Shown in pieces: positions 49,404 to 62,144 of a stretch of DNA of 64,000 bases. Source of the DNA: Methanosarcinales archaeon Met12 (GTDB taxonomy: Archaea; Halobacteriota; UBA148; JAJOKI01); the NCBI GenBank assembly GCA_002813105.2, contig CP017966.2:558001-622000 (forward strand). Reading direction: 5' to 3'. The stretch's first letter is position 1. Each line of letters opens with the position of its first letter. The translations under genes were made by a program, and so were the position numbers. Below the pieces are notes generated by a model that was not told the origin of the DNA, did no database searches, and saw nothing but the letters and a program-made list of their open reading frames with translations.

Positions 49404-49812
49404 TTGTGAGAGAGGAAGGGCGGCTGCCGACACCTTTTCCGTCAACGCTTTTGCGCTTGCCTCGAATCAGAGATTCGCAGGCAGTTTCAGATATTCCATC
49501 TGGAACAAGCGGAAAAGGGTTGTTGAGGAAAGTCCCCCCACCATCTGGACATATGAGTGTGTGCAAGCACACAAGGCGAGAGTCTTGGCTCTGGAACAGA
49601 AACGATACCACGCTACACCAATGCGATGATTCGAGTATGGGAATCGCTTTTGCGATTTTTGACGATGAGGTCGTGCATGTCGTGGCTGGAACGGCGAAAC
49701 CTCGTAGGTGCAAGCCAAAGATGGGCAGATAAGGAGTCCAGCCGATGCCCAAAGTATGGCGCTTAGATGAATGCCGCTGAAACAGAAGGGGGCTTACTCC
49801 CCTCACTCACAA
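49404..49812 (+). ncRNA. rnpB: RNase P RNA (archaeal type A)
   Basis: About 409 nt that matures tRNA 5' ends. Conserved regions are in place: GAGGAAAGTCC (CR I) near 49525, ACAGAAACGATACC near 49596, and ACAGAAGGGGGCTTA (CR V) near 49782, which pair to form P4. The termini TTGTGAG (49404-49410) and CTCACAA (49806-49812) close helix P1, which sets the boundaries. A TATA-like GGTATATGA lies about 25 nt upstream. Several apparent ORFs in this stretch are chance frames. The gene is divergent from AMMECR1. Confidence 0.93.
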
Positions 49813-59545: not shown

Positions 59546-59691
59546 TGTAGTACCTCCAAGAGTTGGAATTAGTTAGTGTTTTCGCTTTAAAAGTTTACCG
59601 ATTATTCCGTGCCCATTCAACATCAAATTTCCACAAAATATGTTTTAGAGCAAAAGCTTATTTTAGTGTAACGCATTGGATGTGTGCACAT

Positions 59692-60074
59692 GCCGGGGTG
59701 GGGTAGTTGGCTATCCTATGGGACTGTGGCACAACCTTTTTAAATAAAAAGGTCGTTCCTGCTTTGCAGAAACAACTTTACTCTGCGTAGCAGAGGTAAA
59801 GGTTGATCAAAAACGCCCTACGTTCGTTCGCATATGCTCGCTCAGTAGGACCATATGACGTATCGAGCGGAGCGAGATACGTCGTTCTGATGATTAACCT
59901 GCTCACTGCTCCGTGTGGCAGATGGAACATCTGCCACTCCGTCTAAATCTCCGGATTTAGTCGGCAGTGAGAGGGTCTCTACGAAGTAGAGACTCCTGTC
60001 TGCAGGTTGACGATCAACCCTTTTGAGGGATGTGCAGAGATCCTATGACCCGGGTTCAAATCTCGGCCCCGGCC
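59692..60074 (+). tRNA. tRNA-His(GTG), split by a 310-nt intron
   Basis: Exon 1 (59692-59729): acceptor GCCGGGG, D-arm GGGT-AGTTGGC-TA-TCCT, anticodon stem TGGGA, anticodon GTG at 59726-59728. Exon 2 (60040-60074): A-TCCTA completing the anticodon stem, T-arm CCGGG-TTCAAAT-CTCGG, acceptor CCCCGGC and discriminator C. The intron is 59730-60039, in the canonical 37/38 position. The splice motif is a textbook BHB: central helix CTGT (59724-59727) with GCAG (60034-60037), 3-nt bulges GG|C and AG|A, intron helix ACA/TGT. No G precedes position 1, so the His G-1 must be added later. No CCA. Confidence 0.92.
59730..60039 (+). other. 310-nt structured intron of tRNA-His
   Basis: At least eight perfect or near-perfect hairpins: CCTTTTT/AAAAAGG (59735-59752); CTTTAC..TCTGC (59776-59801); GACGTATC/GATACGTC (59857-59883); CTCACTGC/GCAGTGAG (59902-59971) enclosing GTGGCAGATG-GAA-CATCTGCCAC (59915-59937) and CTAAATC-TCCG-GATTTAG (59943-59960); and GTCTCTAC-GAA-GTAGAGAC (59975-59993). 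Long-range closing helices are GGTTGATC/GATCAACC (59801-59808 with 60012-60019) and AACCTG/CAGGTT (59896-59901 with 60003-60008). It has no ORF. This looks like a folded RNA rather than a homing-endonuclease gene. Confidence 0.8.
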
Positions 60075-60310: not shown

Positions 60311-61833
<1,523 letters not shown>

Positions 61834-61942: not shown

Positions 61943-62144
61943 GGGCTCGTAGCTCAGCGGAAGAGCGCCGCCTTTGCAATCCACCAGATGTTCCATCACC
62001 TGAAACCCCATAGGAGTTGCAGGTCCACCACTTCTTTGAAATGGTGCAGGGTGCATCTTCGAACTGTGACACAGTGCATTAGAAAACCAGCAGGTTTTCG
62101 CACAAAACAGGCGGAGGCCCTGGGTTCAAATCCCAGCGAGTCCA
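61943..62144 (+). tRNA. tRNA-Ala(TGC), split by a 130-nt intron, in the 16S-23S spacer
   Basis: Exon 1 (61943-61978): acceptor GGGCTCG, D-arm GCTC-AGCGGAA-GAGC, anticodon stem CCGCC, anticodon TGC at 61975-61977 and A37. Exon 2 (62109-62144): A38, GGCGG, variable AGGCC, T-arm CTGGG-TTCAAAT-CCCAG, acceptor CGAGTCC, discriminator A. Intron 61979-62108; the BHB core is TTTG (61973-61976) with CAAA (62103-62106) and bulges CA|A and AC|A. The intron contains hairpins AAAACC/GGTTTT and ACTGTG/CACAGT. Spacer tRNA-Ala is usual in euryarchaeal rRNA operons; the long intron is not. Confidence 0.93.

Follow-up and report, generated by a model that had tools for sequence, protein, structure and literature searches.

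The puzzle of palindromic elements lying in frame in protein genes has concerned mainly Rickettsia and Wolbachia, and to our knowledge their mode of movement is not known. We know of no earlier family of this type in archaea. In the mitochondrial DNA of Allomyces, double-hairpin elements form small mobile units of two hairpins located in RNA genes and introns. The Rickettsia palindromic elements (RPEs) occur in frame in conserved protein genes and also in the genes of tmRNA and RNase P RNA (PMC2229807). The CGTC-tagged families, some RPEs included, apparently have no dedicated transposase; CGTC repeats are found in five bacterial phyla, REPs are 20-40 bp long, and the GTAG types are linked to RAYT transposases (PMC3733652). 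Archaeal tRNA introns are described as shorter than 100 nt in a review (PMC4033280), and large-scale transposition of tRNA introns is reported for Thermoproteales (Fujishima 2010, as cited in PMC4090602 and PMC4033280). In the open-access literature we found no description of palindromic elements in archaeal tRNA introns.

The window, a stretch of 64,000 nt from the genome of Methanosarcinales archaeon Met12, contains a tRNA-His(GTG) gene at positions 59692-60074, with the 16S rRNA gene downstream (Table 1). The gene is interrupted at position 37/38, where the intronless tRNA-His genes of the phylum join, and removal of the intron leaves an intact tRNA with the anticodon loop CUGUGGA. The borders of the intron are exactly those of the original prediction, and the canonical BHB proposed at both ends is present, with bulges of 3 nt each and a central helix of 4 bp, one of them G-U (the tRNA finder scores 4/4 central and 3/3 outer pairs). 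The tRNA halves pair as proposed in the acceptor (7/7), anticodon (5/5) and T (5/5) stems, and in 3/4 positions of the D stem. The length is indeed unusual: 310 nt against the general description cited above and against 45-62 nt in relatives. The intron nevertheless belongs to the archaeal class of BHB introns spliced by EndA, since short length is a usual property of this class and not its definition. The genome encodes a tRNA splicing endonuclease whose two PF01974 domains lie in a single frame, presumably as in the alpha2-type endonuclease suited to canonical BHBs.

Standard programs do not recover this gene. ARAGORN with default settings reports no tRNA at the locus, and in the intron mode it reports tRNA-Tyr(GTA) with the junction slid by 2 nt. 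The tyrosine identity was rejected given the BHB register, C73, the homology to intronless tRNA-His genes and a separate tRNA-Tyr gene at G000:217161-217375 (here and below G000 is the genome of the window, 1.07 Mb, G001 is its sister species, and the other codes denote the relatives compared). The default search with RF00005 also missed the locus, and recovered most tRNAs with giant introns only as 3' halves. Thus tRNA finders can miss or misname genes with such introns, and the ARAGORN result is a warning. Position 59691, the -1 position of tRNA-His, is T rather than G, so that G-1 would need post-transcriptional addition; T is also present in G002, G004, G006 and G010, and G in G003 and G008.

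Table 1. Features of the tRNA-His intron and of related loci in the window (positions of the window).
Feature	Position	Strand	Evidence
RNase P RNA, P3 extended by nested hairpins	49428-49528	+	RF00373 match with 87-nt insert in P3; z -6.1; P3 loop minimal in G002
tRNA-His(GTG) 5' exon	59692-59729	+	homology to intronless tRNA-His
BHB, 5' side	helix CTGT 59724-59727; bulge GGC 59728-59730; outer ACA 59731-59733	+	
310-nt intron, position 37/38	59730-60039	+	BHB, fold, tRNA finder
H1 hairpin, AACCTTTTT/AAAAAGG, ancestral core of short intron	59734-59754	+	common to 45-62 nt tRNA-His introns of G003, G005, G007
Double-hairpin element 1 (H2+H3, 50 nt), inserted at H1 base	59753-59802	+	present/absent series of 49-51 nt in paralogous and orthologous introns; covariation; copies in G003 hisD and in G008 RNase P P3
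E2 hairpin module (CCTAC..GTAGG)	59814-59849	+	copies in other G000 tRNA introns
E3 hairpin module (GACGTATC/GATACGTC)	59857-59883	+	5/8 pairs with compensatory changes, 13 copies
Three-level nest: outer hairpin AACCTG..CAGGTT holding 46-nt and 51-nt elements	59896-60008	+	level 0/1/2 copies in same genome
Double-hairpin element 2, 46 nt (59902-59913 and 59965-59998), split by 51-nt element	59902-59998	+	uninterrupted copies at G000:685150, 756815, 769091
51-nt double-hairpin element Pab, in loop of element 2	59914-59964	+	homologous uL10 insertion in G001; covariation; 13 second-hairpin copies in G000
H4 hairpin, 3' part of intron frame	60017-60029	+	fold; tRNA-His introns of relatives
BHB, 3' side	outer TGT 60031-60033; helix GCAG 60034-60037; bulge AGA 60038-60040	+	
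tRNA-His 3' exon, C73, CCA not encoded	60040-60074	+	sequence, tRNA finder
BHB intron of 45 nt in 16S rRNA gene, short type like the tRNA introns	61336-61380 (ends +/-1 nt)	+	empty site in 16S of G005, G007
tRNA-Ala(TGC) in 16S-23S rRNA spacer, 130-nt intron partly of related hairpins	61943-62144	+	tRNA finder

The relatives have a much shorter intron at the same site. The DnaG-like primase encoded in the window shares 90% identity with its counterpart in a Methanocellales MAG (MAG-838) and ~71% with the one in Met33H (CP061209.1). Among relatives of this order, the tRNA-His intron is 45 nt long in G005, 46 nt in G007, G004 and G006, and 48 nt in G010; it is 49 nt long in G002, 62 nt in G003, and absent in G008. 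Thus the 310-nt intron is an expansion in this lineage. The frame of the ~45-nt short form comprises the H1 hairpin, a ATCAAAAA linker and a GGTTG end, and the frame CACAAACTTTTT..AAAAAGTTTGA[T/C]CAAAAA..TGTGCAGA is common to the G000 intron and the three introns of family f3 (G003, G005, G007). The tRNA-His introns of relatives outside this family contain a different short hairpin.

The steps of the expansion can be observed within one genome. The 16-nt hairpin AACCTG-TTTG-CAGGTT occurs, with small variants, in ten copies in G000; the version that holds a 46-nt double hairpin occurs in three copies, and the version in which the first loop of the 46-nt unit holds in turn the 51-nt double hairpin occurs in three, that of tRNA-His included. 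Independently, introns of the same family differ in whether the H2+H3 unit (49-51 nt) occurs at the base of H1; in the tRNA-Gly(CCC) intron, G003 lacks it and G000 and G009 carry it. These steps are insertions of defined units, and the units form a family of elements of ~46-51 bp with two hairpins and short loops. There is no target-site duplication at the 51-nt unit and none consistent across units; possible short flanking repeats (CTG at the 46-nt unit, AAGG at H2+H3) could be due to chance. An accumulation of palindromic elements, the second of two readings in the original prediction, is strongly supported by this series of empty sites, the exact unit of insertion and the dispersed copies.

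The first of these readings took the intron for a folded RNA domain that may function on its own. The intron folds at -125.2 kcal/mol compared to -85.6 +/- 5.0 in dinucleotide shuffles (z -7.9; none of 100 shuffles was as good), and the structure of minimal free energy contains ten hairpin loops, in agreement with the predicted minimum of eight. Of the two long-range helices that were said to close the domain, AACCTG/CAGGTT is a part of this structure, whereas GGTTGATC/GATCAACC (59801-59808/60012-60019) is complementary but lies outside it, in competition with local hairpins. GGTTGATC also coincides, at 60317-60324, with a part of the 5' end of the downstream 16S rRNA (TGGTTGATCC), and GATCAACC is its complement; at 8 nt this match is probably due to chance.

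The individual hairpins do covary. Compensatory double changes were counted in 18 cells of the E1 alignment (15 rows; 5.3 in shuffles), 14 cells of the E3 alignment (13 rows; 3.8) and 14 cells of the Pab alignment (9 rows; 4.7). None of 500 shuffles reached the observed value and slid controls were far lower; since the rows are related, partly paralogous copies, these shuffle values are not probabilities. In a hand count in the three alignments, wobble pairs exceeded A-C mismatches on the transcribed strand by ~14 to 4, which weakly hints at a constraint on the RNA level. However, covariation of palindromes alone is no proof of RNA function.

A dedicated structured RNA, stable, perhaps circular and with its own cellular function, would agree with the strong fold, the compensatory changes and the wobble excess. 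It would also agree with the existence of circular tRNA introns in Halobacterium and other archaea (PMC12558985), by analogy with which a circular form of the excised 310-nt intron is plausible. However, the structure is not kept in orthologues: the architecture is unique to the tRNA-His copy, the orthologous introns being 45-62 nt long or absent, and the modules are interchangeable among tRNAs and present in coding genes. The Rfam search found no known RNA family, group I and group II introns included, in the intron at E<=1. The claim of a functional domain is therefore not supported for the intron as a unit, and we consider such an RNA very unlikely. We regard the excised RNA as a probable by-product that may be circular for a time.

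The interior of the intron is homologous to the introns of at least nine other tRNAs of G000, up to 366 nt in length. The DNA search with the tRNA-His locus produced many matches in this genome, nearly all inside or beside tRNA genes. In an incomplete census, made with a purpose-written finder on stretches around the matches, the introns at position 37/38 are 15-366 nt long, and 13 of 21 exceed 100 nt. The longest are in tRNA genes Gly-TCC (366 nt), Arg-TCT (303 nt), Lys-CTT (295 nt) and Met (290 nt), followed by Gln-CTG (227 nt), Gln-TTG (199 nt) and Ile (197 nt); most large introns fold with z below -4. The Leu-GAG, Leu-CAG and Ser-GGA genes contain introns in the region of the D loop. For Leu-GAG, by inspection, the sequence allows a canonical BHB, and the product of splicing is identical to an intronless tRNA-Leu(TAG) across the D loop.

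The tRNA-Leu(CAG) gene with the D-loop intron (G000:C1:701696-702180) has a 3' end apparently copied from tRNA-Thr(TGT), which leaves the acceptor stem unpaired, and is followed by an 83-nt tandem duplication; it is possibly a recombined, dead gene or an assembly problem. The tRNA-Arg(CCT) gene (G000:C1:548936-549040) has an apparent intron in an unusual position between the D arm and the anticodon arm. The tRNA-Ala(TGC) intron is partly similar to dispersed hairpins near G000:471200.

These introns might result only from intron transposition or from gene conversion among tRNA genes, as in Thermoproteales, with the hairpins as mere intron sequence. The two cases share similar introns in many tRNA species, canonical and other positions, and BHB junctions. 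Interiors common to many isoacceptors, also in the D-loop region, and the short-type intron of the 16S rRNA gene are in line with this explanation. So are the arms matched to their hosts: in ten introns the 3' arm forms on average 3.7 of 4 pairs with its own host exon and 2.9 of 4 with swapped hosts (permutation p=5e-5). Since the interiors are shared, either they moved with the junctions left in place or the junctions were re-adapted. The intron copies in tRNA-His, Gln-TTG and Gly-TCC are 97-100% identical over 100 nt, and thus gene conversion probably adds to the spread. On the other hand, the introns here grow up to 366 nt, against the described length of less than 100 nt, by elements that are also found outside introns, and the host is a methanogen of the Halobacteriota type with a two-domain endonuclease.

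Copies of the elements outside introns, some of them in frame in essential protein genes, argue against intron movement as the whole explanation. The uL10 gene of the sister species G001 contains an in-frame unit of 51 bp (17 codons), homologous to the 51-nt element and of the same length; it encodes extra residues compared to solved structures. The uL10 gene of G000, whose protein is 93% identical to that of G001, has a clean empty site. In G000, related hairpins lie in frame in the IMP dehydrogenase gene (25 extra residues relative to the solved homologue), and related hairpins lie in frame in the N-terminal insert of DNA polymerase B, as seen by inspection; the solved homologue aligns only past this insert. 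HisD of G003 contains H1+H2+H3 in frame, as an insert relative to the solved structure. No matching arms of a BHB were seen at the hisD insert, and thus it is probably not an mRNA intron. A composite hairpin element lies inside the last repeat shown of a CRISPR array of G001 (G001:C31:1-300), and related hairpin units occur in tRNA flanks. The second hairpin of the 51-nt element has 13 exact-pattern copies in G000, five in G001 and none in five relatives from other genera; the reversed control pattern has no copies.

The RNase P RNA (49408-49808) provides one more location. Within the order, P3 varies from minimal to more than 100 nt, and the RNA is 294 nt long in G002, with a P3 loop of 4 nt, and 401, 420 and 432 nt in G000, G008 and G003, with nested hairpins in P3. 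The G008 insert is the reverse complement of the three-hairpin module. Intron movement or conversion alone could account for the intron copies, but not for those in uL10, IMP dehydrogenase, DNA polymerase B or the CRISPR repeat. The 51-bp and H2+H3 units in genes and in RNase P RNA have no BHB arms, units were inserted stepwise within introns, and the uL10 site is occupied in one species and empty in its sister. We therefore regard it as an unlikely sole explanation.

The elements thus resemble RPEs and the Wolbachia palindromic elements, being palindromes that lie in frame within protein genes and also occur in RNA genes. As with RPEs, an in-frame unit is present and absent at one site in close relatives (uL10), and copies reside in RNA genes (tRNA introns, P3 of RNase P RNA). 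Unlike RPEs, they have an archaeal host, consist of units of 46-51 bp instead of 105-146 bp, are located mainly in BHB tRNA introns and are nested. The likeness is in the way of working; homology is not claimed. With REPs and the CGTC- and GTAG-tagged palindromes they share the small size, dimers and occasional intragenic copies, but the REPs are shorter, and, unlike for the GTAG types, a Y1/RAYT transposase was not found in the five genomes searched for the Y1 family. The double-hairpin elements of Allomyces are alike in form by description, but their host differs, being fungal mitochondria.

As the units are short, palindromic, dispersed and have no coding capacity, they could be ordinary MITEs whose transposase is encoded elsewhere or has been lost. 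However, target-site duplications are not consistent, and each unit is a pair of hairpins, not a spacer flanked by terminal inverted repeats. A Y1/IS200 transposase, the one family searched for, is absent in G000, G001, G003, G005 and G009, and it was rejected as the driver. This origin seems rather doubtful. Spread by viruses was also rejected, the exact patterns of two modules having no match in a viral collection.

The modules also form tandems: a triple H1 in the tRNA-Met intron (G000, 333843), and repeats of E3 in two places of G000, the Met intron at 756643 and the stretch between tRNA-Val and tRNA-Ser (1053217-1053413). Tandem copies such as the triple H1, and the near-perfect arms, would be expected if replication slippage or template switching at hairpins had produced the palindromes locally. 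For the 51-nt and H2+H3 units this is contradicted by homologues at unrelated loci and in the sister species, and as a general origin it is most improbable; slippage or template switching may still be the source of tandem copies.

The explanation that we consider highly likely is that the 310-nt intron is a short protein-spliced BHB intron turned into a nest for lineage-specific palindromic double-hairpin elements: it would have grown from ~45 nt by repeated insertion of small hairpin elements into the intron and into each other. The elements would spread by copying on the DNA or RNA level that favours or tolerates hairpin loops, and ectopic gene conversion between introns would add to it. Insertions would persist where they are harmless, as EndA takes out the introns, and loops of proteins and of RNase P RNA tolerate extra length. 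The complementarity of the hairpins may be kept either because the two splice sites must still meet in the pre-tRNA, or because copying and repair treat a palindrome as one unit.

More tentatively, the elements could represent a new class of archaeal mobile hairpins, copying themselves without an encoded transposase. Their preferred targets would be hairpin loops, whether in RNA genes, introns or CRISPR repeats or in elements of their own kind, a preference seen in few independent events. If so, nested hairpins would be a record of successive insertions, and BHB introns would be safe nests because the endonuclease removes whatever lands there.

Whichever the mode of copying, insertion of elements would explain how archaeal tRNA introns grow to at least 300 nt. 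The genome offers an independent archaeal case of palindromic elements with ordered steps, as empty, once-filled and twice-filled sites coexist in it, and with the sister species it forms a presence/absence pair at a ribosomal protein gene. Thus the choice of targets, the borders of the units and the mode of spread become testable by comparison of more genomes.
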